Origin: a virus
Length of the DNA stretch: 21,817 nucleotides
Strand: one strand, 5' to 3'
IMG/VR virus record: IMGVR_UViG_3300030060_006367
Span: 9,772-31,588 of that record
Of the stretch, positions 5,925 through 21,817 are shown one piece after another. The first letter of the stretch is position 1, and each line of letters starts with the position of its first letter. The translations under genes were made by a program, and so were the position numbers. Below the pieces are notes generated by a model. That model made no database searches and was not told where the DNA came from. It was given only the letters and a program-made list of their open reading frames with translations.

Positions 5925-7151
5925 ATGGAAGATGAAATTTTAGAATTAACTGATGATAGTTTTAGTGATGCCTTTGGTAAAGCTTATACTAAATTAGGTG
6001 GAGAGGGTAAAGAATTTATATGGCAAGGTAAAAAGTATACAACTGATTTAGCTAGTAATCCTACAATAAGTCCTATTAATTTACCTACAAGAAATGTGAC
6101 ACAAATACCAACTAATAATCCTACATCAACAATAACAAAAGGAAATGAACTTTTAAGAGGCGTAGACTCTACTGCTCCTGAAATATCTAAAACTTTTGGT
6201 CAAACTAAAGCAGGTCAATATGTGGCTAATGTTGGACAAAATGTAAAAAATACTACAAAAATATTTAAACCAGGCGCCTTTAAAGCTTTAGATGCTACAC
6301 AACAAGCAGGAGCATTAAATACAATGTCTTTAGTTGCTAATTTAGTTCCTACAGATGATGGTAAAGCGGAAACATATTCAGCTGCAGAAATAGGAAAAGA
6401 TGTAGCAAATTTAGCAATAAGCGCAGCACAATTAGCAAATCCATTAACATTTATGCAAGGAGCAATAGGTCTTGGTACTACTTTAGCTAGTGGAGTATCT
6501 CAAATAGTTAATAGGGGTAAAGCTAGAAAGGCAATAGAAGATGAAAAACAAGAAACAATAAGAAGAGAAACAGAAGCTTTTAGAAATAAAATAAAGGCTA
6601 TACAATTTGGAAGTGCTGCCCAAAGAATAGATGATGAATTAGCTAGAGAAACAGCAGCCAGAGAATCGTATGGTGAAGAAACAAAAACATTAGCATATGG
6701 CGGAACTATGAATCCATTTTCTGGTCAAGATAATTCGGATTTTAATGTAGATTTTTTAAATTTAGAACAAAATATGGAAACTCAATTTAAAAAAGGAGGC
6801 AGATTGTATGACTATTCTAAAGGTGGTATGACACCAGGTGCTTATAATCATAAAACTAATGATATAAAAACTTATGATAAAGGAGGTAATTTTACTGGAA
6901 TATCTGTTACAGGAGGTGAAGGAGTTATAGATTCTCCTGCAATGAAAAAAATGTATTCTTTTAAAAAAGGTGGTAACGCAAAAAAAGCTGGTGAATTAAT
7001 GTTTGCTGAAATGGATAGTTGGAAGAAACACGGCACAGCTAAACAAGGAGCTAGTATACCTAGAACAATGCCTTCACAAATGAATAATACATATGCAAAT
7101 GACAGACATGTTTTGGATATGATAAATAGTATAGGTAATAAATTAAGGTAA
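5925..7151 (+). CDS. Putative virion protein with FxWxGKxY motif and Lys-Gly-Gly repeats
   Basis: This is a 408-aa protein. The ATG lies 11 bases after the muzzle stop, behind a run of A with no Shine-Dalgarno. Residues 12-40 contain AFGKAYTKLG...FIWQGKKYTT, a short motif that I recall from N-termini of assorted phage virion proteins. Residues 155-195 are an Ala/Leu/Gly-rich, weakly hydrophobic stretch, followed at 198-250 by a strongly charged, probably coiled-coil helix (KARKAIEDEKQETIRRE). The C-terminal third repeats a Lys/Tyr-Gly-Gly element (YGG at 258-260, KKGG at 289, SKGG at 298, DKGG at 318, KKGG at 347) and ends this section with GISVTGGEGVIDSPAMKKM (325-343). The repeats look like short beta-hairpins. 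There is no cysteine. Position suggests a tail-associated or packaged cargo protein. The exact role is unknown, and no enzyme motif is visible. The gene ends in tandem stops TAA TAG. Confidence 0.75.
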   Translation: MEDEILELTDDSFSDAFGKAYTKLGGEGKEFIWQGKKYTTDLASNPTISPINLPTRNVTQIPTNNPTSTITKGNELLRGVDSTAPEISKTFGQTKAGQYVANVGQNVKNTTKIFKPGAFKALDATQQAGALNTMSLVANLVPTDDGKAETYSAAEIGKDVANLAISAAQLANPLTFMQGAIGLGTTLASGVSQIVNRGKARKAIEDEKQETIRRETEAFRNKIKAIQFGSAAQRIDDELARETAARESYGEETKTLAYGGTMNPFSGQDNSDFNVDFLNLEQNMETQFKKGGRLYDYSKGGMTPGAYNHKTNDIKTYDKGGNFTGISVTGGEGVIDSPAMKKMYSFKKGGNAKKAGELMFAEMDSWKKHGTAKQGASIPRTMPSQMNNTYANDRHVLDMINSIGNKLR

Positions 7152-7154
7152 TAG
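7149..7154 (+). other. Tandem stop codons TAA TAG
   Basis: The 408-aa gene ends with TAA directly followed in frame by TAG, and the next ATG begins two bases later. An AAGG lies 7 bases upstream of that ATG (7145-7148), the only Shine-Dalgarno-like element in front of any gene here. The double stop would prevent readthrough into the next gene. Confidence 0.6.
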
Positions 7155-7155
7155 T

Positions 7156-8646
7156 ATGTTTAAAGATAAAGGTTATAGTTTAATTAAAAAGTTTGAGGAA
7201 GGTGGCGTTCAAGATGGAACAAGACCACTTGATTTACAAACTATGAAATATTCTAATGGTGGTGTTCTTACCGATGAACAACGTAGAAATAGACAAGGCT
7301 TAGTAATTAAACAAGACACTATGGGTCTTATTATTACAAATATGGGAAATTTTACTCCAGAGCAATTTAATGCTCGGTTTGGACCAAGGTATATTTTAAA
7401 ACAAGATATGCAACAAGTACCTAAACTTAGCCTTAAAGATGCTTTAGAATTTTCTAAAAATACAAATTTTACTAAAGCAAATCAAGTTATAAAAAACAAA
7501 ACTTTGCTTGAAGCAACAGAAAAAGAATATTTTAAAACTTTATCAGAATCTGACAAAAAACAATATATTATAAATAACCCAAATAGCGCTGCTACATTAG
7601 AATATAAAAAAAATCTTGAAGATAAAAAAAAGGATAAAGGAGGCTCTAGTAGTGGTGGTGGTTCTAGTAAAACTGCTAAAATATATAGTAAGTTATTTAA
7701 TGATGTTAAAATGGAAGACTTAGAGCAATATTTACCAGAAGCTCGTGAGTTAACAGGAATAGAAGATTTTAATCCATTAAATTCAGCACATACAAAAAAA
7801 TTACAAGAAGCTTTAGTTGCTCGTAGTGACGAATTTGACTCTACATATTTTAGTGGAAAAGAAACAGATATATTAGAAGGAGATTTAGGTGTTAATAAAC
7901 AAGGTGTTGATGGTAAGTTTGGTATAGATACTTTTAACGCTCTTAAAGAGTCTTCTGAAAAAGTAGACGACACAAAACAAAAAATAAAAGAAGGCGTTCA
8001 AAAAGTAAAAAAAGTTGTACAGGACCATGGATATAATGCGCTTACATTATTAAAAGCAGGAACAGGAATACATGGTATAGGAAAAGCATTAAAAAATATA
8101 GAAATAGGAGAAGAGCCTGAGCTATCAGCTTCTTTTAGAGCTTTTATGAATAGAGCAAAAGAATTATCAGAATCAGGTATAGACCCAGTAGAAAAAGCTA
8201 GAATGAAATCTGATTTAGGAACTGCATATAACGCAGGTGTAAAAAATGCAATGAGAGCAGCAGGTGGTAGTAGAGGTGCTTTTTTAGCTAATGCAGGGGT
8301 TTTGAACGCAAATAGAGTAAATGGTTTGTTAAAACTAGCTGCTTTAGATAATGAAGCTGCAAGAGCTAATATGAAAAATTATGGAGATAATTTAAGATTC
8401 CAAGAAAAATATTTAGCAGAAAATAAAAATAAAACCAGAGACATGAAATATGAAGAGGATGTAAGACAAGCAAATGTTTGGGGACAGTTAGGTTCTGGTT
8501 TATTAGGTATGGCTTTTGAAGATTTTGCATATGCAAAAGAACAACAAAATATGAAACCATACTATGATGCGTTAGTAAACAAATCAGATATGACTTTATT
8601 TGAGCATCAGGCTAAAATAGATAATCAAAGTTTAGGGATAAAATAA
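7156..8646 (+). CDS. Putative virion protein with peptidoglycan-binding-like module
   Basis: This is a 496-aa protein whose start is 4 bases after the previous stop. The N-terminus (FEEGGVQDG, residues 13-21; YSNGGVL, 32-38) carries Gly-Gly elements like those at the end of the preceding protein. Residues 150-161 are a Lys/Asp-rich helix leading to the flexible linker GGSSSGGGSS (162-171). Residues about 207-263 resemble a peptidoglycan-binding domain of the PG_binding_1 type: helix HTKKLQEAL, then GVDGKFGIDTFNAL, where DGKFG-x-x-T-x-x-AL is the family signature. A basic amphipathic helix follows (271-290). The C-terminal 170 residues are helical and Ala-rich (MKSDLGTAYNAGVKNAMRAA, then GGSRGAFLANAG), a pattern I recall from phage virion proteins. 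No cysteine and no lytic active site are visible. It could anchor the virion to the cell wall during ejection, or be an injected protein. The overall family is not identified. Confidence 0.72.
   Translation: MFKDKGYSLIKKFEEGGVQDGTRPLDLQTMKYSNGGVLTDEQRRNRQGLVIKQDTMGLIITNMGNFTPEQFNARFGPRYILKQDMQQVPKLSLKDALEFSKNTNFTKANQVIKNKTLLEATEKEYFKTLSESDKKQYIINNPNSAATLEYKKNLEDKKKDKGGSSSGGGSSKTAKIYSKLFNDVKMEDLEQYLPEARELTGIEDFNPLNSAHTKKLQEALVARSDEFDSTYFSGKETDILEGDLGVNKQGVDGKFGIDTFNALKESSEKVDDTKQKIKEGVQKVKKVVQDHGYNALTLLKAGTGIHGIGKALKNIEIGEEPELSASFRAFMNRAKELSESGIDPVEKARMKSDLGTAYNAGVKNAMRAAGGSRGAFLANAGVLNANRVNGLLKLAALDNEAARANMKNYGDNLRFQEKYLAENKNKTRDMKYEEDVRQANVWGQLGSGLLGMAFEDFAYAKEQQNMKPYYDALVNKSDMTLFEHQAKIDNQSLGIK
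7774..7944 (+). other. Peptidoglycan-binding-like module inside the 496-aa protein
   Basis: Residues 207-263 show an amphipathic helix with LQ (TKKLQEAL) and, about 30 residues later, GVDGKFGIDTFNAL. This matches the closing signature of three-helix peptidoglycan-binding domains (DGxFGxxTxxAL). The intervening loop is longer than in typical members. A Gly/Ser linker lies about 35 residues upstream. This is motif-level evidence only. Confidence 0.55.
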
Positions 8647-8653
8647 TTAAAAT

Positions 8654-10963
8654 ATGAGTTTTGCAAATATAATTAATAGTTGGAGTACAAGTGCTCAAAG
8701 AGGTAGAGAAAGAGCTAAAAGCTCAGCTAATATTGCTATGCAGACATATACTACTAATGCTGAAACTCAGATGTTAGCAGAAAATGTTCGTGCACAAAAT
8801 GAAGCATTTACAAATACTATAAATTCTACAGCAGAAAGTTACGCAAAATATGCTAGACCAAAAGACCATGCTTCTTTAACAAGAACAGTAGAGACTGCAG
8901 AAGCAGAATTTAAAAGCAAATTAAATCAATTTGGAGACGACCCATTAACATTTTATAGAAATGGTGGAAGACAATTCTTGGAAGAATATAAAGATGCTAT
9001 TATGGGAAGTTCTGCTGTAGCAAGAATTAAAAATAATATTCCTAGTATTAAAAAATATTTAGAACAACAATCTAAAGACCCATATATGTTATCTGATATG
9101 GATAGAAGAAACTATGAAGCTTACATGAAAGGTGAAATAGATGATTATAGATTTGCAGGTTCTTATACTAAATTTGATAAATTAGACAATATAGATAATT
9201 GGAATAATCCAGATTCAGGAACTGGTTTATATGATAGTTGGGGAGAAATGGTATTTAATTCAGATAATCATGGTGCGGCTTTAAATAATTATAGAATAGA
9301 CCATGGATTATCTGTAGACTATATGATAGAAAATAAATATAATCTTGAAGGAGATGTAATTAATTGGTTAGATAACAATCATAGTAGATTATATAATGTT
9401 AGGTCTACTGGAGCTCCACAAGAAGCAGTGAGAAAAAGACAAGAAGAGGTACAAAAAATGACTTCTGCTAACTTTACAGATGCAACAATAGGTATATTAG
9501 ATATGTATTCTTCTCAAAATCCATTTAATGATACTGACCCAGCTAACTCAACTGCAAATTACAATGCAGGATTATTATATGGACTAGAGCCATATAGATT
9601 TGATAATACTTTAGCTAGAGGTAAGAAAAGAAAAAATAGAGTTGTTTGGAATGGTGTGTTAGATGGTAGAGGTGGTGAAGCTGAAGGTGGCTTTATGGGT
9701 GTATTATTCCCTGGTCATGAAGACAAAAGTCATATACATACATCTGATTTAAGTGGTATATGGAGAGGTGGCGAAGGTGTTCAAGTTTGGACAGAAAAAG
9801 GAGATAATATATATGACACCAGCTATAATGAAGGTAGTAGGTTGGATTTTGATTATGGTCCTTTTGATGGAACCTTAAGTTATAGAGGAGCTGTTCAAGT
9901 TTATGCTGTTAAAAAGCCAGGTGAAGATAGAGAAACATTAGTTACTTATGAAGAAGCACAAGAGCTTAAAAGATTAAATGACCCTAATATGACAATAAGA
10001 CCAACTATGGCAATGATGTTTAGAGATGCTGATTATCTTTTTAATGATTGGAGTGTTGCTGATACTAAAGGAGAGGAGAGTATATTTGTAGAGGTTGATT
10101 TAAGAAATCCTCATGTATCAGGTGCTTTCCATAACTTTATGGAACAAAAAAACAAAGACTTAACATTTACATTAAAATCAGTAAAAGAGCATCAACCTAA
10201 TTCATATAACTGGGAAGGTGCTGGTAATAAATTTGTTTATACTACAGATAATACAAGAGATGCTGTAGGTACATTATTTGATGATGCAAACAATGCATTA
10301 ATGAAATTTGGCCAAAGACCTTTAGGGCCTGGTACAAGTTTAAATGTAGAAGGTTCAGCTCACTTATTAGCATTTGCTTTAGAAGAAGCAGAAAGTGGTA
10401 ATCCATTATTAATATTACAAGAGGTAGGTAATTCGTATAATAAAACTCATAGAGATATGCAAAAAGATTATGAGCAAATGGGAATGGAATATCAATTACC
10501 TGAAGGAGCTAACTTAGATGATTTAACTGAAGGCTCCCAAGAATTACAAAAATTATTGGTATCTTTAGAAAAGAAAGATTATGAATCATTCTACAATACA
10601 ATACAAAGTTACGAAGAGAAGGTATTAGGTGTAGAAGAATTTGAAGCTCAGTTGGGAACATTAGATAAAGGAACTCTAGAATATAGACAAACTAAAAATA
10701 TTATAAACAATCTGAAAAAACAAGCAGAAAAAAAGGTTGATGATGTAAAAAGGTCTGTTGACCATGTTTCAAAAGCTGTTATGTATTATGGCGAAAATGT
10801 TAGGGGAGACTTAAAACTATATTCATTCCAAGAACAATTTTCTCATAGAGCTCAAGATAAGACAATGAATTATTACGAAAACCCATCAGGTTTAGAGTTA
10901 GATAAAATTAACGAAGACCATTGGGACCAATTAGATAATTCAACAAAGAATTTTGTACAATGA
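8654..10963 (+). CDS. Putative virion cargo protein directly upstream of the giant RNA polymerase gene
   Basis: This is a 769-aa protein whose ATG lies 7 bases after the previous stop, in an A/T-rich leader without Shine-Dalgarno. Residues 1-65 are a helical, Ala/Asn/Thr-rich N-terminus. Residues 100-170 hold a charged helical block (NGGRQFLEEYKDAIMGSSAV, then RRNYEAYMKGEIDDYRFAG) that looks like a conserved structural element of crAss-like virion proteins, though I cannot name the family. The middle (about 325-420) is Gly/aromatic-rich and probably beta-structured (FMGVLFPGHEDKSHIHTSD). The end (about 625-710) is Lys/Glu-rich and likely coiled coil. No signal peptide, membrane span, catalytic motif or cysteine is seen. 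Its TGA stop overlaps the ATG of the giant downstream gene, so the two are probably made in a fixed ratio. A packaged partner or chaperone of the polymerase is an inference from position only. Confidence 0.7.
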   Translation: MSFANIINSWSTSAQRGRERAKSSANIAMQTYTTNAETQMLAENVRAQNEAFTNTINSTAESYAKYARPKDHASLTRTVETAEAEFKSKLNQFGDDPLTFYRNGGRQFLEEYKDAIMGSSAVARIKNNIPSIKKYLEQQSKDPYMLSDMDRRNYEAYMKGEIDDYRFAGSYTKFDKLDNIDNWNNPDSGTGLYDSWGEMVFNSDNHGAALNNYRIDHGLSVDYMIENKYNLEGDVINWLDNNHSRLYNVRSTGAPQEAVRKRQEEVQKMTSANFTDATIGILDMYSSQNPFNDTDPANSTANYNAGLLYGLEPYRFDNTLARGKKRKNRVVWNGVLDGRGGEAEGGFMGVLFPGHEDKSHIHTSDLSGIWRGGEGVQVWTEKGDNIYDTSYNEGSRLDFDYGPFDGTLSYRGAVQVYAVKKPGEDRETLVTYEEAQELKRLNDPNMTIRPTMAMMFRDADYLFNDWSVADTKGEESIFVEVDLRNPHVSGAFHNFMEQKNKDLTFTLKSVKEHQPNSYNWEGAGNKFVYTTDNTRDAVGTLFDDANNALMKFGQRPLGPGTSLNVEGSAHLLAFALEEAESGNPLLILQEVGNSYNKTHRDMQKDYEQMGMEYQLPEGANLDDLTEGSQELQKLLVSLEKKDYESFYNTIQSYEEKVLGVEEFEAQLGTLDKGTLEYRQTKNIINNLKKQAEKKVDDVKRSVDHVSKAVMYYGENVRGDLKLYSFQEQFSHRAQDKTMNYYENPSGLELDKINEDHWDQLDNSTKNFVQ
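10960..10963 (+). promoter_or_regulatory. ATGA stop-start overlap (translational coupling site)
   Basis: The TGA (10961-10963) of the 769-aa gene shares bases with the ATG (10960-10962) of the giant gene. The giant frame has a TAA at 10936-10938, so this is its first possible ATG. No Shine-Dalgarno precedes it. Termination-reinitiation is the simplest way to start translation here. Confidence 0.7.
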
Positions 10964-13900
10964 GTTTATTATTCAGAGCCACACAAAGTAACATAGAAAA
11001 AGATATAAAAAAGTATGATTCAGGCACATCAGCTAAAGAAGAATCTACTCCTATACAAACACCTTCTAATTTACCACAACAATATAACGCTCCATTAGGT
11101 GAGGGTTTGCAAAACAGATTTGCATCTTCTAAAAACTTTTTAGGTGATGACAGAGAGGGATATATGCGTAGTGAAGCTGTAGATGTAGATTTGCCACAAG
11201 GATTACAATTAAGAGAGCAAGAGGTAAATAATCAATTAATGGACCAGTCTAGGCAACAAGCTTATTCTGCTTCAGACCCTGCTGTAAACTCTTTTTTTAT
11301 AGAATCAGGAGTGGTCCCAGAAAGTAGCGATAGAACTAAAGAGGCTGCTTGGAGGTCTAATATGTTTAATAGTATTAATGAGTTTGATGCTCCCCCTACA
11401 GAAGCAGGTAAGATTACAAGAAGTTTAGCTTATGGATTTGGAAATTTTTTAGAAAGTTGGGGTAATATAAAACAAATGATTTCGCAAACAACACAAGCTG
11501 TTTCAGATAATATTATTAAGTTTGCTTTAGGTCAAGTTGTGGGTCAGCCTGAAGCGGCTCAACATTATGAAGGTTTAATGGAAATTACAAGAACTGGAGG
11601 CACGCAACAAGATATTGAAAAATATATTACAGAAACTATGGGTCTTGGTGATAAGATTGATACAAAATCAGTTTCTGAAATATTATATGGATTTGATTGG
11701 ATGACTGACAAGACTCTTGCTGCATCAGCTAGTGGGCCAGAGGGTAATTTTTTACAAGAAGCAGGTAAAAATTTAAAAGCTTTTTCTAATTGGGAAAATG
11801 ATGTGTATCCACATAGGGACGCAAGATTAAATGATGAGGGAGCTTTTTATATGGGTGAAGATGGAAAAGGTATGTTTGGATTAGGAATAGTGCCTACAAA
11901 AGTTAATTATTCATTAATGTTTACTCCTGATTTTTGGACAACAGAAGCTGTTCAACAAGTACCTTATTTATTAGAAGGACTAGGTGTTGGCTCTATATTA
12001 AAAAAAGTAGGAACATATGGTTTAAAACAAGGATTAAAAGCAACTGGAAAAAAAGGAGCAGCATATATGGCTAACCCTTCTGTTATAAGTGCCTATAAAC
12101 AAAAAGCATTAAATAAACTATATAAAACTATGGGTTTTAATGGTAGAAATGCTAGTGTTGCTGCTGTAACTAAAGGTCAATTATTAGAAGGAGCAGTTGA
12201 AACAATATTTGGTGGTGTTGGTTATTGGTTGCCTCATGCAGCGCATATATCTAGTCAAACATATATGGATGTTTTAAAACTTTCTGGTAATCCTGATGTA
12301 GCTAGAGCAAGTGCTTGGGGTACTTTTATAGATAATACAGCTACTATGCCACTTGCTATTTTTCAACATAGTATACTTACAAAAGGTTTAACAGGTATTC
12401 GTCAATCTATAAAATTAAAACCTAAAGGAAATCCATTTAAACAAAGACTTAAAGCTCTTATGCCATCTATGGCCTTACCATTTGTAGAGTCAAAGTTTGA
12501 AGAGATAGAAGAAGTTTATCAAGATTGGACTATTCAAAAAAATGTAGCTCAATATAAAGGTGAGGAGTACATGGACTTTATGGATTACTATAGAAGTCCA
12601 GAGGCTGCACATACTAGAGTGTTGTCTGCAGGTATGGGTTTGGCATTTGGTAGTATAGGTTTAGGTAGAGATATTGCAAGTGATATTAGAGCTGCAGATA
12701 TGCGAAGTGTTATAAATGATGCAGCAGAAAGGTCTGCTAATATAGATGCTTTAATAACACAATTTGGACTTAATAAACATGTTAGTGAAGGTGTAGAATC
12801 TACACATACTTCAGTAGAAGATGCTATACAAGATATGTATTATCATGCTGCGTCACAAGAAGATATAGGTGGTAGCAAAGATGTGATAAATCACTTTGTA
12901 GAATTAGGAAGTATAGGTCTTACTAAAACAGAAGCAGATAGACACCTTAGTGCAATAGAAGCTATACATGAAACCTTTAAACCTTATATTGGTATTACAG
13001 AGTCTATGACAGATGAGATGGGCGTTAAGAAAAAAGTTAAAATTGCTAAATATGCTTATGAACTTGAATCGCAAAAACAACAACTATCTGAAATTAATGA
13101 AAGCTATGATGCGCAAATAAAAAAGATACGTGAAAGCGATAGGTCTGCTGGTGTAAAGAAAAGAATGATTAGTAAGTTAATGAAAGAACAGCAAAGAGCT
13201 AACATTACTTTAACTAAGGATATAAATAAATATCAAACCGATATTGAAACTTTATTAGATGAGCACGATAGATATATGAAAGATAGAGAGGCTTATCTAA
13301 AAACAAAAAGAAAAGATGTTAAGGCTAAAAAAGCTGATGCACCTGTAGTTATTACTAAAGAAGTAAAACAAAAGCTTAGAAAACAAGGTTATAATAATGC
13401 TGATATAAAAGAAATGTCTGTGTCTCAAGCAAACAAGTTGGTAAAAGAAGGCACAACAAAACAAGAAGCAGATAAAACTGCACAAGCAAAAGAAACGCAA
13501 AGTACAGCTTTATTAAAAACAAAACTACTTGCAGCTAATTTAGGTTATAAAAATGCAGACATAAATAAAATGTCTAAAAAAGAAATAATTAGAGTCTTAA
13601 ATAATAAAATAAAGAAAACTGATTTTTTACAAAAAAAACCTAAAGAAGGTAAAAAGCCATTAGGAAAAATAATTTCTACTAAAGGTATGCTTCCTGCTAA
13701 TATTTTAAATCGTAAAGAAAGATATGAGGTGATTCATGATGGTGAAAAGAAAACGGTAGAAGTTCGAATTTATGAAAATGGAAAAGAAGAATATAAATTA
13801 ATTAATAAAGATGGTGCCTCGACTATTATAAAAGTTCCTGAAAAGGGTACTATTAAAGAAAAAATAGATTTAGCTCTTGAGGATGCAGACGCAGTTTTAA

Positions 13901-16900
13901 CTGAAACAATAACAGATGTTGATAAATTATACTCTAAAAAACAAATAGAAAAACGTGGTTTAGTAAGAGAGGGGGATGTTGAAACACAACAAGAAGTTCC
14001 TGCAGAAATTACAAATGGTTTAAAGACTAAAAAAGAAAAAGATTTAGCAGAAGAAGTATATAGATGGTTGCAAACAGATGAAGGAAATTTAGACAATAAC
14101 TCTGTTCAGTATGAAGTGGTAAATAAAGAATCTGGTGAAGTTTTATTTTATAGAAACCCTTATATAGCATCTGCATCTAAATTAGCAGGAAAATCAATAA
14201 CAAGAGTTAAAGAGATTTTAAAAGAAATGCAAAGACAGCATATGATTATAAATCCTGGTTTAGCTCAAGTTATGATAACTAATATTGATAAAGCAGAAAA
14301 GTTAAGAGAGGTAAAAAGAAAAGATAAAAGAGATTCAAGAAAAAGATATAGTGTACAAGAAGAAGAAGAGTCGCCAACATGGGAAAGAAATATAGGAGCA
14401 GAAAAAACATTGCGTAGATTACTTAGAGGTAAAAACATAAACCTTATTACATATAACTATGCTAAAAGAAACAAACAAGGCATTAGATACTATGGAGCCG
14501 CGCAAGGACTATCTATATACTTAGATGCTAAAAAAGCTAGTCACGATGTTTTATTTGAAGAATTAGGACATATATATCTTGACGATGCATCTAATCTACC
14601 TAGCACTAAGGCTTTAAGAAAAATTATACACAAAGAGCCTGTGTTTAAAAAGAAACTAAATGAATACTGGTTTAGGATTGAATATAAAAATCCTGATGGA
14701 ATAGGTAAATATTTAGGTGATTTGATTGATATTGAAGTAGATATTGCACCATATGGTGTGTGGAAAAAAGCTAATAAAAATAAAAGCAATAGTGAATATG
14801 TTGCTTATGTAGATAAGATACTTACTTCTAAAGGATATAAAAGAAGGCAAGATAGGTTTCAAGAAGAGATAGCACATGAAGCCATGATGGAGGTTTTAAC
14901 TAAAGTAAAAAATCAACAAGCTAAAAATATACAAGAGATGAATAAGTCTTTGCTTGTGTTAGCAGGTAAAGAAGGATTGGCTTTTGTAAAAGGAATGTTA
15001 AAGTTTATTGCAAATAGATTTACTAAAGCAGAGTCAAAAAAGATATTAGAAGAAACTGGTAATGAACATCTATATAGCAAAGAGTCACAAAAAATTATAG
15101 AAAATGTATTAGATGACTTTAAAAATCATAAAGGAGAGTTTAGTGGTGAAAAGGGTAGTTATACTGCTAGACATCATATAACTCGTTCTTTAGGCTCACA
15201 GGTGTCTATGTTTGATGACGAAGCTACCATGAATGAGCTAGCAAAATATGTTGAAGGTTTATTGGAAGAAGAAACAGAATTTAAAAATGAAATTACTGAC
15301 CCTAAATACATAAATAATAAAGAAGGCCAATACTATACACCTGCTGGTGTAATAAAAATGAAAAGGTTTATTAAAGATAAAGAAGCTGAGATAAGAGGCT
15401 TTATGGAAACTTTAAGAGCAGAAAAACTTATATCATATGAACAGTTTCAAAAATACATGTCGTCTGATAAACTAATAAATAGTCTTACACAACATGTAAC
15501 AAGTTCACAATCTGGATTAACTATAAAAGAAGAGGATGAAATGCAAGCTATTTTATCTAATCAAATGTCAGATATTAATGAAGGACTTGGGCCACAACTA
15601 TCTAAAGATTTAGTTGAGTTTATAAAAACTAGTAAAGACCCTGATGTATTTGATGGTAATGTTAGAAGAATATTAATAGAAAACATATTTGATAATACAA
15701 AAAATGCAGACGAGTTTGTAGAAAATGTAGAAACACTTATAGCTATAAGAAAGTCTAATCCTGAAAGTCTAAGTTCCGATGATTTAATTTTAAGCGACTT
15801 AGCTACCTATATGCAAGAAAAGTATACAGAAAGAGGGCAAGACGCTTACAATCCATTAAAAGACCTTTACAATGAACTTAAAGAAGGCTACATGGAGGTG
15901 GACTATACAGTTATGAATCTTAGGTTAAACCAAAAAGGTAAAGCTGAGATTAGTAGACTAGTTGGTCCAAAAGAAAGATTACTTGCTACATCTATAGAAA
16001 AAGATTTTATATCTATGCTTCGTATAGAAGACTTTGCTAAGCCAAGAGTTGATAAAGGCGAAACATCTGTAGACCTATCTAAAAGAATGACAGCAGAAAA
16101 GATATCTAAACTATCTTATATGTCTAATCTTGGTAATATGTACAATCTAATATTAGATGACAACACTACAGACATGCAGGCTAGAAAAGAAATAGCTAAG
16201 TTTATTAAAAATTATTTTGCCACTAACTTAGAAATAAGTGAAAGTGCTATAGCGAAATTTGAAATGCTTAATACTGCAGAAAAAAGAAAAGCATTAGTAG
16301 AAGGATTAATAAATGATACTGCACATACATATTTTCATAGAGGTGGTAGTGATAAGCAAGGAGCCAATCCTAATCCATTTGTATTTATAGAAAGCGTATC
16401 AGATGAGGGAAGAGTTAGAACTAGAAGCAGTGCAGAAAAAGAAAATGTTAGAAATGAAATTAGAGCTGGTTTTAATGAATGGGCAAGAACAGGTCCTGCT
16501 AAAGAAGTATTTGAAAGACATTTTGAAGAAAAAGGCGAAACAGTAAATTGGGATAGCATGGTAAAAGGATTAGGAGCTATATTAACGTATTCTTTTGATA
16601 ATCCTACTACTGTACAAGACGGAAAAAGATTTTATGGTAGAGCTAAATTTAACATAGGTAGATATTTTAAGTCAGGTAATAGATATGCAAAATCTAAATT
16701 TGGAGCAGAGGCTTACATGAATCCTTTCTGGGAATTAGAAACAACTGCTAAAAAAAACAAACTATTTGGTTATGAATCTGTTATTAATGTTTCTAAAGCA
16801 ATAGCACAAAACTTACAAGATAAGAAAAGAGAAAGTACTGTTAAAGCTCCTGACAATAAAGACCTTGTTACGTTAAGTAAAAAGAATAGTTTGTCAGTAG

Positions 16901-19900
16901 GTATAGATGTTATTAACAACTCTGATATAAAGGTGTTAAGTAATTACTACAAAAACAATGCCATAATAGAGTTAATGAAAAACAATCCTAACTATAAAAT
17001 AGATATAAAGCCTAGTGGTGGTGGGTTTGTTACACTAGAAGATGGAACAAATATAAACTATAGAAAAACAAAAGTATCTCCTGAGTTATCTAGTATTATA
17101 GATATGGACTTAGCCTTACAAGGTATAGTTTCTAACACTAACTATAGTATGCCTGTTGGTATATTTGGTGATAAAGATGTGCAATATAGATGGGACAACA
17201 CACCTGTTTATAACTTGCAAGATGCAAGAAAAGAAATACGTAAGGTAGATAAAAGAAATACTTTTGCTGATGGTAGCAAGTATGGTAGCTTTAAGACTGC
17301 AGACATAAGAGCATTGGTTAGTAGAATGAAAGGGTTTATTAGTAAAGATTCTAAACAACTACATTTAACAGAAGGTTTAGCTGCTATATCTAATGCCGTC
17401 AAAGAAGGACAAAAAGATGTTATAGTATATGGTAAGCAATTTGTTTTGAATGATTTGTTAGAGTTAATGGTTTTAAATAAAGCTATATCTACATTTAATG
17501 TAAAGGAGTTAATAGACCAAAAAACATCTAACTATACTAGCTTTTTAGATAATATATCTAGAAGAATGAGAAGTGTTTCTCCGTTTTCTGCAATGGGTGG
17601 TGATTATAGAGTAGAATATGTATTAGTAAAAAGCATACCTATAAACTACAATAAGCCTATTGCACCAAGAAAAGGAAGAAACGAGGTTGCTTTAGACAGC
17701 AAGCCTGCAGGCACATCTATAAACATTCAAGAGGCAGAAGATGCGTTTTCTATTATATCAACAACAGGGGCACAAATAGCTAGAAAAAGATATGGTGGTA
17801 TAAGAGACTTTGGTAATCATTTAAAGTGGGTAGGTAGTCATAATGAATTAGAAAATGATACATATAATAAAAACTTTGATAACGTACCTTTTTATTTTAA
17901 AACCAATACTGCTATTGCAAGTCAAGATTTCTTAAAAAAGAATCCTGTGCTTAAAGATGTAATGAACAAGATAGAGCAAAGACAGTCTGTTGTTGGGGAA
18001 AACACTATTGTAATATTTGCTCCTGAAACTACAGTTAAAATTAAAAACGAAAAGTTAAAAAAAGAATTTAAGTCTTTAGAAGAAATACAAAACATGTCTA
18101 TGGAAGAGTTTAACAAAAACCAAGATAGACTATTTAAATTTAAAGATAAAGATAATGTAGAAAAGTATGGATTAAGTGGTAAAGAAATAGGTATACAATT
18201 AGAGTTAGATAAAAAATCTAATGACTCTGTTTTGTCTAAACAGCTACAATTATTATTATTAAGTCCACTTAAAGAACAAGCTGAAACAGTTATTAATAAT
18301 TTTGTAGAAGCATTTAAGCTTAAACAACCACAGCAGTTTAAGAAAATGACTGACGAGGCTTTATATGATAATGCTAATAGAGAAAACTTTGCTGAAGCTA
18401 AATTAGACTTAGTTAAGAAAGGTTCTTTTGATAACAACTCTATAGCAGTAAGAAATCAATTAGTTAAGTCTGTGTTTGGTAAAATGCTTACTAAAAGAGG
18501 TCCTGGTGGAACGCTAACACAAATGCCAGGTATATTCTATAGAAAATCTTTTAGTCCAGGAGATGTAATGTTTGATGCTAGTTTAGGACTACAAGGATAT
18601 GGTAGAACTAAAGATGGTAAAATTACTTCAGCAGATATAGCTGTAGGTGAGAGAGCTGGTCTCCAAGTAGGAGATGTGGTATTATTACAAAGACTACCTA
18701 CATCAAAAGGTGGTGATGCTATATACGCTACAGTTGTAGATGTAATACAGGGCATAGGTAATGGTGTTATGGTTCCTGCTGAGTTAGTAGGTAAAGTTGG
18801 TTCTGACCATGATGGTGATACTAACCAAACTTTAAGAAAATATAGAAACCCTAAAACTAAACATGAAATAGCATTTAATAAAGCTTTTGATTCTTTAATA
18901 AACTTTATTAGAAGTCCAGAGTATGCTGCGTATATGGAGGCGGAAATGGATTATATGTCTGTTTACAAAGGTGTAGAGTCTGATTTAAACCAAGCATATA
19001 AAAATTCTGATATATATGATAACTTAAATGATTTAACATATTTTGGTAATGAACAACTGCTAAGGTTTAAAGATGAAGGTCAAATAGGGATAGGTGTTGC
19101 AGCCATACAAAACACATTACAAAAAGTTTTATCTGCATACAGTGTGTCTTTTGAGTCGCCTGGTACATCTATAAATGGTAAAAATTTATCTACAAAGTTT
19201 AGTTCTTCAAAATCAGCTATACTAAATATGGCATTTAAATTAAACATACTGGTAGATGATGTAAAGAAAGGTTTAGCTAAATACTTAAACATGAATAGTG
19301 TAACACATAATATGTGGTTTCATTTATTAGGTAGAGGCGTTAGCTTTAAAGATGCTTCATTAATACTTGCGCATCCTGTTGTAAGACAATATGTTAGAAT
19401 GATGCAAGACACAGCATTATTACAAGGTAAAGAAAAAATAGTAGCAAAGAAAAGAATAATAAATCAGTTGTTAAATGATAATGTTACATCTGATAAAATT
19501 AAAAGTGCTTTTTATACAGAGTCTTTTGATGTAAATACAGCACCTGCGCAAATAACTAAAGAAGAAAATGTAGCTGGTATAATTCAATTAATAAGAGATT
19601 TAGATAATGATATAATAAATGCAAAAATTACCGCATTGTCTTCTATTATTAATTATGATAGCAATATACCAGTAACTTATTTGGGTGGCTTAAATCTACT
19701 AAAACAAGTGTTAGACTTAGGATTAAATGATGGAGGGGTAATAAGTATGTCAAATCTTATAGATGTTAATACTGAATTTACATTTAAAGAGCTTGTGTCT
19801 GGATTAAAAATAAACGATGTTAGTGATGCATCTACAGCTGTAGAATTTAAGTCATCATTTATACAAAACAATTTGGAGTTATTAATAAAACAAATAAATA

Positions 19901-21817
19901 AGCTTAATGCAGACCCAGCAGTACAACAAGGGCACTTTGCGTTAGTAGATGCAATGCACCCAATGTCAACTCAACATAGTTTTGTTCATAAAGATGAAGA
20001 TATAGAGAAGACATTTAATCTTGTAAGGTCATTTAGATTAAGACAAACACCAGGTTTGTATAACTTTAACATAGAAAAGTTATTCAAAAGAGGATTTTAT
20101 AAGGATAGCCAACAAATGTTAGAGCTGTTAAATCCAAATACATCTGTTGATAGATTAATGGATTTAGGGTTAGCTCACATTAAAACACTTTCTATGTCAC
20201 AATACAAAAAATATGATTTTATTAAAAAATATTTAGACATACAAAGAAAGACCACTGGTAAGTTTGCAGGTTATATAGAGCCTACATCTAATAATAAAAC
20301 AAAAATATCTATTAAAGACGGTAAGGTTATAGCAGAAAATCTTGAAAAGAAAAAACGTTATGATGAAATGTCTTTAATTGTTAAAGATAGAATTAAAGAT
20401 GCTGATATAAATACAGTAAAAAAAGAATGGGCAAGATTAGATGATGATGTTAAAGACTTTTTGTTTGCTTACGATTTAATTAAAAACAATCATACAGGGT
20501 ATAATACTTTACTGCCATATATGTTTGGTAGAAAATATAGAGATGCTGTTGTAAAAGAAACTAAAAAACAAGCTAACATAAAAGAAGGTGGGTTAACTAA
20601 CGCATACTATAACCAAGCATTAGAGTTTATTAAACTTAATAATAGAGATTCTTTCTTTAAACTAAACAAAGAGCTACTAGAACAGGCTACAATAAATACT
20701 AAAAACAATTCTATAGAAATGTCTGTAACATCTGAGTATATTAAAGATGGGCAAATTGTTTCTGTTAATGCAGATACAAAGAAGGCAGAAGATGGTTTAG
20801 ATAATAATTCAGCGCAGTTATTATATAGAGCTGATAGAATAAGAAAAGGTAGATTGGTTAATGATGTTATGTATGATAACAACTTTGATAAAGTTAAGGT
20901 GTTAAGAAATCTTAAGTATACTGTAGCTAAAGTAAACACATATCAAAATGGATTAGAAAGCGTTATAAGTAAAGCAGATGTTGTTTTATTTGATGGACCA
21001 ACTAATGATATTAGTGGTTTAAGAATTAAAAAAGAAGCTAGAAAACAAAACAAACCTTTTATGTATATGTCTGGGACAGATGCGGTACAAGGTTTTATAA
21101 GAAATAACAAAGCTAAAAAGATATTTATTGGTGGTGGAATAGAAGAGTCTGCAAGAACAGAAGAAGAACTAGAAAATACATTTGCATATTCTACATATAG
21201 TTTAACACCTATAAGTAATTCATTTGTAAGACAAAGTGTTATAATGCCTGAGGTAGATGTAGATATGATGGATAAAAACATTGAATCTAGAACAACAGAA
21301 GAAACAGAAACATCTATACAAACTAAAATAAACTTTAATATTAAAGATGCTCTTGATGCTAAAGAGACAATATCTGTAACACAAAACTCTGAACAGATAT
21401 TTCAAAGAGGTAAACTAAAAGAACTAGGCAATATAAGTTACTTCCAAGCATTACAAAGAGGAGCTGTAACAGGAATAACTGTAAAGACAACAACACCTAT
21501 ACACGGTAGGCTTAAAAAACTAAAAGAAGGTGATGTAATAGAGTTTAAGAGTGTAAATAATGAAAGTCTATATGTAACTGTAACTAAAGCGTTACACCCA
21601 CTAAGAGGTTCTGGAAAAAATATAGAGTCATGGTCTGGTATCGATGGATACAACAAAAATTACTTTATAAGTAAGATAAGAGGAGACATAGACAACTATA
21701 ATCAAATAGAGTTTGAGCCATATATTGATGAAAACAATATGAGGTTTAATATAGATGGTAAGGCAGAAGAGGCAGAACAAAAAGATATAGATGCAAAAGA
21801 TGATATGCTTACAGAAC
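10960..21817 (+). CDS. Giant virion RNA polymerase polyprotein of crAss-like type, 3'-truncated by the window edge
   Basis: The frame runs from the ATGA start to the last base without a stop: at least 3619 codons, C-terminus missing. Visible segments by residue: 336-570, Gly/Ala-rich hydrophobic stretches with an acidic helix (FEEIEEVYQDW) as in injected internal virion proteins; 700-780, charged coiled coil; 806-883, two short helical repeats; about 1165-1310, zincin-like domain with EELGH in place of HExxH; 1400-2230, unassigned; 2348-2815, RNA polymerase core with DHDGD at 2616-2620; 3316-3399, SLOG-like; 3471-3574, ASCH-like. DxDGD marks the catalytic double-psi beta-barrel shared by cellular beta' subunits, YonO/QDE-1-type enzymes and the crAss-like phage polymerase (phi14:2 gp66, 2180 aa from memory). 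The product is expected to be packaged and delivered with the DNA to transcribe early genes. It contains no cysteine. The polymerase call is firm; the accessory domains are tentative. Confidence 0.9.
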   Translation, partial: MSLLFRATQSNIEKDIKKYDSGTSAKEESTPIQTPSNLPQQYNAPLGEGLQNRFASSKNFLGDDREGYMRSEAVDVDLPQGLQLREQEVNNQLMDQSRQQAYSASDPAVNSFFIESGVVPESSDRTKEAAWRSNMFNSINEFDAPPTEAGKITRSLAYGFGNFLESWGNIKQMISQTTQAVSDNIIKFALGQVVGQPEAAQHYEGLMEITRTGGTQQDIEKYITETMGLGDKIDTKSVSEILYGFDWMTDKTLAASASGPEGNFLQEAGKNLKAFSNWENDVYPHRDARLNDEGAFYMGEDGKGMFGLGIVPTKVNYSLMFTPDFWTTEAVQQVPYLLEGLGVGSILKKVGTYGLKQGLKATGKKGAAYMANPSVISAYKQKALNKLYKTMGFNGRNASVAAVTKGQLLEGAVETIFGGVGYWLPHAAHISSQTYMDVLKLSGNPDVARASAWGTFIDNTATMPLAIFQHSILTKGLTGIRQSIKLKPKGNPFKQRLKALMPSMALPFVESKFEEIEEVYQDWTIQKNVAQYKGEEYMDFMDYYRSPEAAHTRVLSAGMGLAFGSIGLGRDIASDIRAADMRSVINDAAERSANIDALITQFGLNKHVSEGVESTHTSVEDAIQDMYYHAASQEDIGGSKDVINHFVELGSIGLTKTEADRHLSAIEAIHETFKPYIGITESMTDEMGVKKKVKIAKYAYELESQKQQLSEINESYDAQIKKIRESDRSAGVKKRMISKLMKEQQRANITLTKDINKYQTDIETLLDEHDRYMKDREAYLKTKRKDVKAKKADAPVVITKEVKQKLRKQGYNNADIKEMSVSQANKLVKEGTTKQEADKTAQAKETQSTALLKTKLLAANLGYKNADINKMSKKEIIRVLNNKIKKTDFLQKKPKEGKKPLGKIISTKGMLPANILNRKERYEVIHDGEKKTVEVRIYENGKEEYKLINKDGASTIIKVPEKGTIKEKIDLALEDADAVLTETITDVDKLYSKKQIEKRGLVREGDVETQQEVPAEITNGLKTKKEKDLAEEVYRWLQTDEGNLDNNSVQYEVVNKESGEVLFYRNPYIASASKLAGKSITRVKEILKEMQRQHMIINPGLAQVMITNIDKAEKLREVKRKDKRDSRKRYSVQEEEESPTWERNIGAEKTLRRLLRGKNINLITYNYAKRNKQGIRYYGAAQGLSIYLDAKKASHDVLFEELGHIYLDDASNLPSTKALRKIIHKEPVFKKKLNEYWFRIEYKNPDGIGKYLGDLIDIEVDIAPYGVWKKANKNKSNSEYVAYVDKILTSKGYKRRQDRFQEEIAHEAMMEVLTKVKNQQAKNIQEMNKSLLVLAGKEGLAFVKGMLKFIANRFTKAESKKILEETGNEHLYSKESQKIIENVLDDFKNHKGEFSGEKGSYTARHHITRSLGSQVSMFDDEATMNELAKYVEGLLEEETEFKNEITDPKYINNKEGQYYTPAGVIKMKRFIKDKEAEIRGFMETLRAEKLISYEQFQKYMSSDKLINSLTQHVTSSQSGLTIKEEDEMQAILSNQMSDINEGLGPQLSKDLVEFIKTSKDPDVFDGNVRRILIENIFDNTKNADEFVENVETLIAIRKSNPESLSSDDLILSDLATYMQEKYTERGQDAYNPLKDLYNELKEGYMEVDYTVMNLRLNQKGKAEISRLVGPKERLLATSIEKDFISMLRIEDFAKPRVDKGETSVDLSKRMTAEKISKLSYMSNLGNMYNLILDDNTTDMQARKEIAKFIKNYFATNLEISESAIAKFEMLNTAEKRKALVEGLINDTAHTYFHRGGSDKQGANPNPFVFIESVSDEGRVRTRSSAEKENVRNEIRAGFNEWARTGPAKEVFERHFEEKGETVNWDSMVKGLGAILTYSFDNPTTVQDGKRFYGRAKFNIGRYFKSGNRYAKSKFGAEAYMNPFWELETTAKKNKLFGYESVINVSKAIAQNLQDKKRESTVKAPDNKDLVTLSKKNSLSVGIDVINNSDIKVLSNYYKNNAIIELMKNNPNYKIDIKPSGGGFVTLEDGTNINYRKTKVSPELSSIIDMDLALQGIVSNTNYSMPVGIFGDKDVQYRWDNTPVYNLQDARKEIRKVDKRNTFADGSKYGSFKTADIRALVSRMKGFISKDSKQLHLTEGLAAISNAVKEGQKDVIVYGKQFVLNDLLELMVLNKAISTFNVKELIDQKTSNYTSFLDNISRRMRSVSPFSAMGGDYRVEYVLVKSIPINYNKPIAPRKGRNEVALDSKPAGTSINIQEAEDAFSIISTTGAQIARKRYGGIRDFGNHLKWVGSHNELENDTYNKNFDNVPFYFKTNTAIASQDFLKKNPVLKDVMNKIEQRQSVVGENTIVIFAPETTVKIKNEKLKKEFKSLEEIQNMSMEEFNKNQDRLFKFKDKDNVEKYGLSGKEIGIQLELDKKSNDSVLSKQLQLLLLSPLKEQAETVINNFVEAFKLKQPQQFKKMTDEALYDNANRENFAEAKLDLVKKGSFDNNSIAVRNQLVKSVFGKMLTKRGPGGTLTQMPGIFYRKSFSPGDVMFDASLGLQGYGRTKDGKITSADIAVGERAGLQVGDVVLLQRLPTSKGGDAIYATVVDVIQGIGNGVMVPAELVGKVGSDHDGDTNQTLRKYRNPKTKHEIAFNKAFDSLINFIRSPEYAAYMEAEMDYMSVYKGVESDLNQAYKNSDIYDNLNDLTYFGNEQLLRFKDEGQIGIGVAAIQNTLQKVLSAYSVSFESPGTSINGKNLSTKFSSSKSAILNMAFKLNILVDDVKKGLAKYLNMNSVTHNMWFHLLGRGVSFKDASLILAHPVVRQYVRMMQDTALLQGKEKIVAKKRIINQLLNDNVTSDKIKSAFYTESFDVNTAPAQITKEENVAGIIQLIRDLDNDIINAKITALSSIINYDSNIPVTYLGGLNLLKQVLDLGLNDGGVISMSNLIDVNTEFTFKELVSGLKINDVSDASTAVEFKSSFIQNNLELLIKQINKLNADPAVQQGHFALVDAMHPMSTQHSFVHKDEDIEKTFNLVRSFRLRQTPGLYNFNIEKLFKRGFYKDSQQMLELLNPNTSVDRLMDLGLAHIKTLSMSQYKKYDFIKKYLDIQRKTTGKFAGYIEPTSNNKTKISIKDGKVIAENLEKKKRYDEMSLIVKDRIKDADINTVKKEWARLDDDVKDFLFAYDLIKNNHTGYNTLLPYMFGRKYRDAVVKETKKQANIKEGGLTNAYYNQALEFIKLNNRDSFFKLNKELLEQATINTKNNSIEMSVTSEYIKDGQIVSVNADTKKAEDGLDNNSAQLLYRADRIRKGRLVNDVMYDNNFDKVKVLRNLKYTVAKVNTYQNGLESVISKADVVLFDGPTNDISGLRIKKEARKQNKPFMYMSGTDAVQGFIRNNKAKKIFIGGGIEESARTEEELENTFAYSTYSLTPISNSFVRQSVIMPEVDVDMMDKNIESRTTEETETSIQTKINFNIKDALDAKETISVTQNSEQIFQRGKLKELGNISYFQALQRGAVTGITVKTTTPIHGRLKKLKEGDVIEFKSVNNESLYVTVTKALHPLRGSGKNIESWSGIDGYNKNYFISKIRGDIDNYNQIEFEPYIDENNMRFNIDGKAEEAEQKDIDAKDDMLTE
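11965..12666 (+). other. Hydrophobic internal-virion-protein-like segments in the giant protein N-terminus
   Basis: Residues 336-570 contain three Gly/Ala-rich hydrophobic stretches: YLLEGLGVGSIL (about 345), LLEGAVETIFGGVGYWLP (408-425) and VLSAGMGLAFGSIGLG (554-569). The last follows an acidic helix FEEIEEVYQDW. Such alternation of amphipathic and hydrophobic helices is typical of phage proteins that enter or cross the host envelope during ejection. Membrane insertion is inferred. Confidence 0.45.
13375..13608 (+). repeat. Two degenerate copies of a GY-NADI-MS helical repeat in the giant protein
   Basis: Residues 806-831 (LRKQGYNNADIKEMSVSQAN...) and 856-883 (LLAANLGYKNADINKMSKKE...) share the pattern L-x(3,4)-G-Y-x-N-A-D-I-x-x-M-S-x-x-x, each followed by a helix. 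The protein similarity is clear while the DNA has diverged, so the duplication is old. The layout resembles small two-helix SAP/LEM-like units. A charged, low-complexity linker separates the copies. Confidence 0.6.
14461..14920 (+). other. Zincin-like metallopeptidase domain with altered active site
   Basis: A predicted beta strand GLSIYLDAKKASHDVL runs into FEELGHIYLD, where E1200-E1201-L-G-H1204 sits at the place of the HExxH helix. Downstream, YKRRQDRFQEEIAHEAMMEV (E1302, E1303, H1306, E1307) resembles the helix that supplies the third ligand in zincins. I recall zincin domains from giant crAss-like phage proteins. The first zinc-binding His is replaced by Glu here, so peptidase activity is uncertain. 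Confidence 0.5.
18001..19410 (+). other. Double-psi beta-barrel RNA polymerase catalytic core
   Basis: Residues 2348-2815 of the giant protein hold the ordered landmarks. They are TIVIFAPETTVKI (from 2349), GIQLELDKK (2411), KRGPGGTLTQMPG (2512-2524; likely the lysine-bearing first barrel), LQRLPTSKGGDA (R2578), GVMVPAELVGKVGSDHDGD ending at D2620, GQIGIGVAAI (G2707) and VDDVKKGLAKYLNM (V2765). D2616, D2618 and D2620 are the expected metal ligands. The RLPT element before the triad and the IPxE-like lead-in are spaced as in other single-polypeptide polymerases of this class. A further block at about residue 3167, FLFAYDLIKNN, may belong to the same enzyme. Confidence 0.85.
20905..21156 (+). 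other. SLOG-like (cpYpsA C-terminal half) segment
   Basis: Residues 3316-3399 read NTYQNGLESVISKADVVLFD, then LRIKKEARKQNKPFMYM, a predicted helix ending FIRNNKAKKIFIGGG, and EESA. This follows the second half of circularly permuted YpsA/SLOG folds: NV...aDatLi, then T...A...kkP, then k.lnvaG.reS. The first-half signature (SGGqtGaD) is not visible upstream. The match is by pattern memory and weak. Confidence 0.35.
21370..21681 (+). other. ASCH/PUA-like segment near the visible C-terminus
   Basis: Residues 3471-3574 include the beta-rich run ITVKTTTPIHGRLKKLKEGD, followed by VIEFKS, LYVTVTKALHPL and WSGIDGYNKNYFISKI. The order KT.T...R, then GD.i.F, then v.Vtkv, then an EGw.k.yf-like helix recalls ASCH domains, small PUA-fold modules that bind nucleic acid or nucleotides. 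The assignment is tentative. Confidence 0.35.

Follow-up and report, generated by a model that had tools for sequence, protein, structure and literature searches.

Cysteine is depleted from the putative ejected cargo of a divergent crassvirus and, in its relatives, found at the facing ends of split RNA polymerase chains

Results

Gene content of the window and assignment of the record

The window, that is, the whole stretch of 21,817 nucleotides analyzed here, corresponds to the last 21,817 bases of an IMG/VR virus record (positions 9772-31588 of 31,588). It is AT-rich (31% GC) and carries five genes, all on the forward strand, with no further long open reading frame (ORF) of note. The first (1..5913) encodes the C-terminal 1,970 amino acids (aa) of the muzzle protein, the gene start of which lies upstream of the window; it was recognized by Pfam (PF25731, crAss_MUZ; E = 6e-109) and, as a virion structural protein, in a PHROG search. 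Between the muzzle and a giant RNA polymerase gene lie three genes for putative cargo proteins of 408 aa (5925..7151), 496 aa (7156..8646) and 769 aa (8654..10963). The giant gene (10960..21817), of which the first 3,619 codons are visible, is open at the record end, with the C-terminus of its product beyond it.

PHROG and Pfam searches with the four proteins downstream of the muzzle, hereafter the block, gave no matches. Against a profile of Suoliviridae C1 cargo proteins, the 408-aa protein displayed a suggestive similarity (whole-sequence E = 0.014; best stretch, i-E = 1.3e-4), and the 496- and 769-aa proteins had no family match. Because of their gene position and lack of cysteine, together with the weak C1 match of the 408-aa protein alone among them, we regard the three small proteins as putative cargo.

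By its core profile match and catalytic loop, the giant gene qualifies as encoding a Crassvirales virion RNA polymerase (two-barrel, DxDxD), of the type with fused a and c parts, and its position and size class are as in relatives. The Crassvirales RNA polymerase core profile matches residues 2578-2684 with a modest score (i-E = 1.3e-4) and an unusual loop: GSDHDGD (residues 2614-2620; 18799..18819), the likely counterpart of the catalytic GSDFD(I/V)D, has His in place of Phe in the triad spacing. The visible chain extends about 1,000 aa past this loop; in relatives, the chain ends about 900-2,450 aa past it. The polymerase a part contains an HExxH zincin motif in nearly all relatives (77 of 80 contigs). 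The window instead has EELGH (residues 1200-1204; 14557..14571), a possible remnant of that motif, and since it replaces HExxH, the protease of the window polymerase may be dead or altered.

The remaining 9,771 bases of the record, upstream of the window (L002), carry portal, scaffold-like, capsid, ring and other head-tail genes, including the major capsid protein (PF23898; 3e-21) and ring protein 1 (PF24228; 3.5e-31). Short unreadable stretches in L002 (~948-985 and 3527-3624; XXXX in translation) break the portal and capsid genes. Across both parts of the record, the order of rings, muzzle, small cargo and giant RNA polymerase matches that in the 12 named genomes compared, and the record belongs, on sequence grounds, to Crassvirales. 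Identity of the muzzle to known crassviruses is only about 21-31%, too low for a close match to any named genus of the Steig-, Suoli- or Intestiviridae. Single-protein scans of IMG/VR with the RNA polymerase core, the 769-aa protein and the muzzle retrieved no relatives, and tblastn against the phage collection with residues 1-2,997 of the giant protein yielded no match; the window represents a sparsely sampled branch.

Absence of cysteine from four consecutive genes

The earlier note had reported no cysteine in the 408-, 496- and 769-aa proteins and the 3,619 visible codons of the giant gene, against 11 in the 1,970 residues of the muzzle fragment at the upstream border of the block, and the ORF translations confirm both counts. 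The four block genes contain no TGT or TGC among 5,292 sense codons, as compared to 64.4 expected from the genes' own position-specific base frequencies (Poisson P ~1e-28). The upstream genes together with the muzzle fragment encode 27 Cys in 4,724 residues (Fisher P = 1.5e-9 versus the block). Cys is the outlier residue of the block; the next most depleted, Trp, is down only about 2-fold. Several small upstream ORFs, namely those for the 335-aa scaffold-like protein and for proteins of 247, 237, 117 and 107 aa, are also Cys-free, so that the absence of Cys from a short protein is of little significance.

The note had further argued that base composition alone does not suffice as an explanation. 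We agree, and give base composition a negligible probability as the source of the deficit, along with avoidance of the codons and regional effects of mutation. The AT-richness of the window would favor such a source, but the codon expectation contradicts it, and TGT/TGC are common in the other two frames of the block (96 and 310 occurrences), which argues against any base-composition effect. Regional or strand effects are equally contradicted, given that cargo genes occupy both strands in crAss001, DAC15, cr128, cr116 and cr106, and yet are Cys-poor. These candidates were rejected on the codon expectation and the presence of cargo on both strands in several genomes.

Depletion of cysteine in Crassvirales cargo

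The virion cargo of PhicrAss001 has been defined by mass spectrometry as gp45, gp46, gp47, gp49 and gp50 (PMC10172136). Exactly these five are the Cys-poor proteins of crAss001: together, they contain 7 Cys in 7,478 residues, compared to 1.33% in other ORFs of the genome. Among 12 Crassvirales genomes, Cys accounts for 0.17% of cargo residues versus 1.36% elsewhere, with a 4- to 20-fold reduction in each genome (Mann-Whitney P = 3e-23), and when nine genomes are added, cargo Cys in the resulting 21 stands at 0.15%. A content below 0.2% is found in 75% of cargo proteins versus 4% of the 135 other ORFs of at least 300 aa. In the 12 genomes, Cys is 8-fold down in cargo, and His, the next residue, 1.5-fold; the overall residue profile of cargo is rich in Ala and Gln and poor in Trp and His. 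The interpretation of the note thus withstood the refuting conditions that the note had set: in such genomes, genes for capsid, tail and replication proteins have ordinary Cys content, and homologous cargo proteins of relatives are Cys-poor.

Depletion is not absolute. In lineages reading TAG as Gln (among L030-L109), interior Cys is four to ten times higher (ac chains, 0.35% versus 0.08%; b chains, 0.37% versus 0.04%). Because these recoded lineages keep 0.35% interior Cys, and cr130 has 0.38% in all cargo, internal cysteines are evidently tolerated. In Steigviridae C1 proteins (L003 41987-44515, L006 14177-16675, L183 4051-6279), the sole interior cysteines form C-x7-C pairs within a conserved FTxYCGGKVTxxCIxRG motif.

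Cysteine content of ejected proteins in other phages

Depletion of Cys, and its restriction to ejected proteins, recurs in several phage groups. Among T7-like phages, gp15 lacks Cys in 44 of 44 distinct proteins and gp16 has 5 Cys in 46 proteins, in comparison with 0.58% in gp12 and 0.76% in TerL. The N4-like virion RNA polymerase (vRNAP) has 3 Cys in 16 proteins, and none occur in gp51 (0/13) or gp52 (0/11), compared to 0.39% in gp53 and 0.93% in the primase. P22 gp7, gp16 and gp20 have no Cys in 1,309 residues. At the same loci, tail and packaging proteins that are not ejected contain 0.3-0.8% Cys. YonO of SPbeta, a homologue of the crassvirus polymerase which is produced in the cell and is not known to be a virion component, contains 14 Cys in 839 residues (1.67%).

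The rule is not universal: virion RNA polymerase subunits of phiKZ are weakly depleted or not depleted at all (gp178, 0.34%; gp180, 0.41%; gp80, 1.34%; phage background, ~0.87%). Some non-ejected virion proteins, N4 MCP (0/401) and P22 gp26 (0/233), are also Cys-free. In P23-45, neither the virion nor the non-virion RNA polymerase has Cys, a paired comparison that is uninformative because the phage background is only 0.29%. The suggestion of the note that lack of cysteine could mark phage-delivered cargo is thus supported by the crAss001 cargo detected by mass spectrometry and by ejected proteins of T7, N4 and P22, with phiKZ as an exception.

Tape measure proteins may follow the same rule, judging from their sequences: that of SPbeta has 0 Cys in 2,285 residues (L021 439-7296), and the tape measure-RNA polymerase fusion of P23-45 has 0 in 5,002. 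In 38 of 42 distinct T7-like gp14 proteins (L016 27728-28318; L134-L181), the only Cys is at position 2 (MCW...); T7 gp6.7 (L016 18864-19130), which is also ejected, starts with MCF and is otherwise Cys-free.

Terminal cysteines at breaks in the polymerase chain

The crassvirus polymerase consists of three parts, the gp47-like a, the catalytic, gp50-like c and the gp49-like b. Steigviridae encode them as a|c|b, Suoliviridae and environmental relatives as ac|b, and Intestiviridae as a|cb. The few Cys of these chains occupy positions 3-6 or the final residues. In the named genomes, a Cys is present at 37 of 39 facing ends, at none of 29 outer ends, and at none of 64 ends of small cargo proteins.

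A scan with a catalytic-core alignment (A2) yielded 80 contigs, and single b queries five loci; after removal of near-duplicates (cores >90% identical), 60 complete separate ac chains remained. A Cys is found in the last 7 residues of 55 of these, whereas in four others a tail extension places it 16-29 residues from the end, and the fifth is a broken gene. In b genes, the first Cys is at most 12 residues from the start in 56 of 59, and at most 8 in 53 of 59. Facing ends thus carry a Cys in 108 of 117 cases as opposed to 0 of 54 outer ends (ac N-end, b C-end), the Fisher P value of 2e-35 being overstated because related sequences are not independent. Among other ORFs of the same contigs, such terminal Cys occur in 4 of 79 and 5 of 57. 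Five contigs encode ac and b with exactly one Cys each, at the facing tips (e.g., L035; 4,522 and 2,111 aa). Furthermore, C4 is the only invariant column in an alignment of 41 b N-termini (10-46% identity), and C238 the only near-invariant one in an alignment of 31 ac C-termini (7-23% identity). No second Cys accompanies these residues: none of 59 ac tails has two in the last 12 residues, and none of 58 b starts has another within about 25. His is present in 12 of 59 ac tails and 17 of 58 b starts.

The exceptions were inspected. In L050, L056, L062, L109 and cr273, the ac Cys precedes a tail extension and is 16-50 residues from the end, and in cr10 it is 11 from the end; the first ORF start is upstream of the likely start in L096 and L102, and the gene is broken in L104. 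In cr116_1 (L014 11998-26709), c is apparently split by an endonuclease-like ORF into c1 and c2, both of which end in Cys; c2 has none at its start, which might represent a partial exception to the rule or a recent insertion.

Conservation of the b N-terminus extends beyond the Cys, as a CPNxxNK motif. In an AlphaFold model of b, the Cys is predicted in an ordered start ahead of a helix (pLDDT ~94); in that of the ac C-terminus, which is of low confidence (mean pLDDT 54.5), the Cys terminates a tail that is probably flexible. A Foldseek search with the b N-terminal model returned no significant match (best E = 0.44). We also considered translation coupling or a DNA motif as the source of the terminal Cys and judged both unlikely, because the Cys stays in frame at a variable distance from the end (1-7) or the start (3-6), and because chain a is convergent to c and b in crAss001-like genomes.

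Gene breaks, fusions and the terminal cysteines

Terminal Cys depend on chain breaks and are lost upon fusion. Genomes fetched after this rule had been framed served as its test. In Intestiviridae (a|cb), the C-end of a has its Cys (1956/1957, 2019/2020), as does the N-end of cb (MSC; in crAss002 once the start of cb is moved to Met33); the C-end of cb has none, and no Cys is conserved where c and b join. In four further genomes of the Steigviridae type and in two IMG/VR relatives, Cys is present at every readable facing end (some annotated starts in L027 and L028 are slightly upstream). In the fused acb genes (L066, L078, L079), the C-end Cys is absent and no junction Cys pair was found, and ac fusions with a single Cys have none at the a-c boundary. 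The window giant, an ac fusion, has no Cys at the fused a-c boundary or anywhere else among the 3,619 residues that are visible, in agreement with the rule for such a fusion.

Discussion

The block is likely a Crassvirales cargo module, with Cys purged from the ejected chains and lone terminal Cys probably stapling the split ones. The association with ejected proteins makes ejection-linked selection against Cys highly probable. The three small proteins and the giant RNA polymerase would be carried in the virion and delivered to the host before the DNA, by way of the tail and its muzzle gate. They would cross the tail in an at least partially unfolded state, as has been proposed (PMC10172136). 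Any disulfide arising in the free virion or the periplasm would create a loop or cross-link unable to thread or refold; since it would block passage or refolding, Cys would be removed from the cargo. The note had offered ejection through the tail and contact with the oxidizing periplasm as an explanation; this reading is supported in outline, although the data do not tell tail threading, the periplasm and oxidation in the free virion apart.

Indeed, Cys might be avoided owing to oxidation and random cross-linking in the free virion, at very high protein concentration, rather than to passage through the tail or periplasm. Such a cause fits all the depletion data equally well and would accommodate the Cys-free tape measure of SPbeta, the Gram-positive host of which has no periplasm. 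Nevertheless, we consider it possible but doubtful, because muzzle, portal and capsid proteins share the same virion and keep their Cys, and crAss001 tail proteins even use disulfides (PMC10172136); as the proteins that keep Cys need not move, the two causes overlap. That long helical or coil-rich virion proteins are Cys-poor regardless of ejection appears improbable. N4 MCP and P22 gp26 could be cited in favor of such a structural-class effect, as could the Ala- and Gln-rich, Trp- and His-poor profile of cargo, but other residues shift at most about 1.5-fold compared to 8-fold for Cys, other long ORFs of the same genomes are seldom as poor in Cys as cargo, and the folded catalytic part of the polymerase is Cys-poor when its homologue YonO is not.

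Located at the tips, the terminal Cys could form no large loops within a chain, and yet could join chains. Where a, c and b are split, Cys is conserved once in the last residues of the upstream chain and once in the first residues of the downstream chain, and at no other site, and its likeliest role is an end-to-end disulfide. The stapled pieces would then thread as a unit, with the N-terminus of a in front, to be freed by the reducing cytoplasm, and N-to-C ejection, as proposed for gp45, would turn a-c-b into one directed thread. We put the chances of an end-to-end disulfide staple between polymerase chains at about even. Linking geometry appears possible, with the b Cys modelled in an ordered start and the ac Cys on a probably flexible tail. 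Alternatively, the terminal Cys might be metal ligands, a packaging or docking signal, or contacts in the assembled polymerase, with the interior depletion a separate matter. The CPNxxNK motif of b, conserved beyond the Cys and modelled as ordered, could indeed be a binding site, and the lone Cys of T7-like gp14 has no obvious chain partner. Still, this alternative seems unlikely: a disulfide fits better than a metal site because each facing end has one Cys, no second Cys and few His, and a general packaging signal would not be absent from outer ends and lost on fusion. A zinc site between facing ends was judged unlikely for the same lack of ligands. In its full form, the disulfide reading posits that tip disulfides link a-c-b for serial expulsion as if it were one 6,000-residue polypeptide, that release follows in the reducing cytoplasm, that fusion swaps the staple for a peptide bond, and that Cys depletion with lone terminal Cys predicts cargo; the odds for and against this scheme seem to us balanced.

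Several known systems provide points of comparison. The cargo of PhicrAss001 (gp45, gp46, gp47, gp49, gp50), like that of the window, adjoins the muzzle gene; it was detected in virions by mass spectrometry, and its ejection in a partly unfolded state has been proposed (PMC10172136). In the window, by contrast, a and c are one gene in which no Cys is seen, and position and homology point to cargo status. Phi14:2 gp66 (PDB 6VR4), like the putative window polymerase, is a Crassvirales virion RNA polymerase; in phi14:2, a (g067), c (g066) and b (g065) are separate chains, each Cys-poor with Cys only at facing ends, whereas the window polymerase is an a-c fusion, extremely divergent, with GSDHDGD in place of GSDFDID. 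T7 gp14, gp15 and gp16 are likewise ejected, refold after passage and are nearly Cys-free, but they are not homologous to crassvirus cargo and build a channel, and gp14 retains its Cys at position 2. The vRNAP of N4-like phages (Schitoviridae) is also a giant, Cys-free virion RNA polymerase expelled via the tail; it comes from an unrelated phage and is a single chain without breaks or conserved terminal Cys. It is a T7-like single-subunit polymerase, not one of the DxDxD two-barrel kind.

The observation is real, not an artefact, correctly interpreted in outline, and partly known for N4 phages: the N4-like vRNAP was described as devoid of Cys, with a link to tail passage and periplasmic disulfides proposed in 2010 (PMC3715699) and repeated since (PMC3915230, PMC5795418). 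The crassvirus structural atlas (PMC10172136) nowhere uses the word "cysteine", and neither the ejection-protein review PMC8954989 nor, in a text search, two recent N4-like structure preprints mention it. What looks new is that cargo of crassviruses, T7 and P22 is included and, most of all, the chain-break rule; the latter was not found in the literature searched, and as most subscription papers are not searchable, its absence is unproven.

Crassviruses are the commonest human gut viruses. How each polymerase set, with about 0.7 MDa of folded protein, passes a channel of less than 50 A, and in what order, has been stated to be unknown, although ejection of gp45 was proposed to proceed N-to-C with partial unfolding (PMC10172136). 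A rule on forbidden versus obligatory Cys sites renders this question directly testable on virions of cultured phages. Long virion-module proteins with less than about 0.1% Cys would also provide a cheap sequence test for ejected proteins of metagenomic phages. As far as our searches show, the swap between fusion and paired terminal Cys would be an undescribed means of holding split proteins together; if this is true, evolution trades a staple for a peptide bond on each gene fusion.
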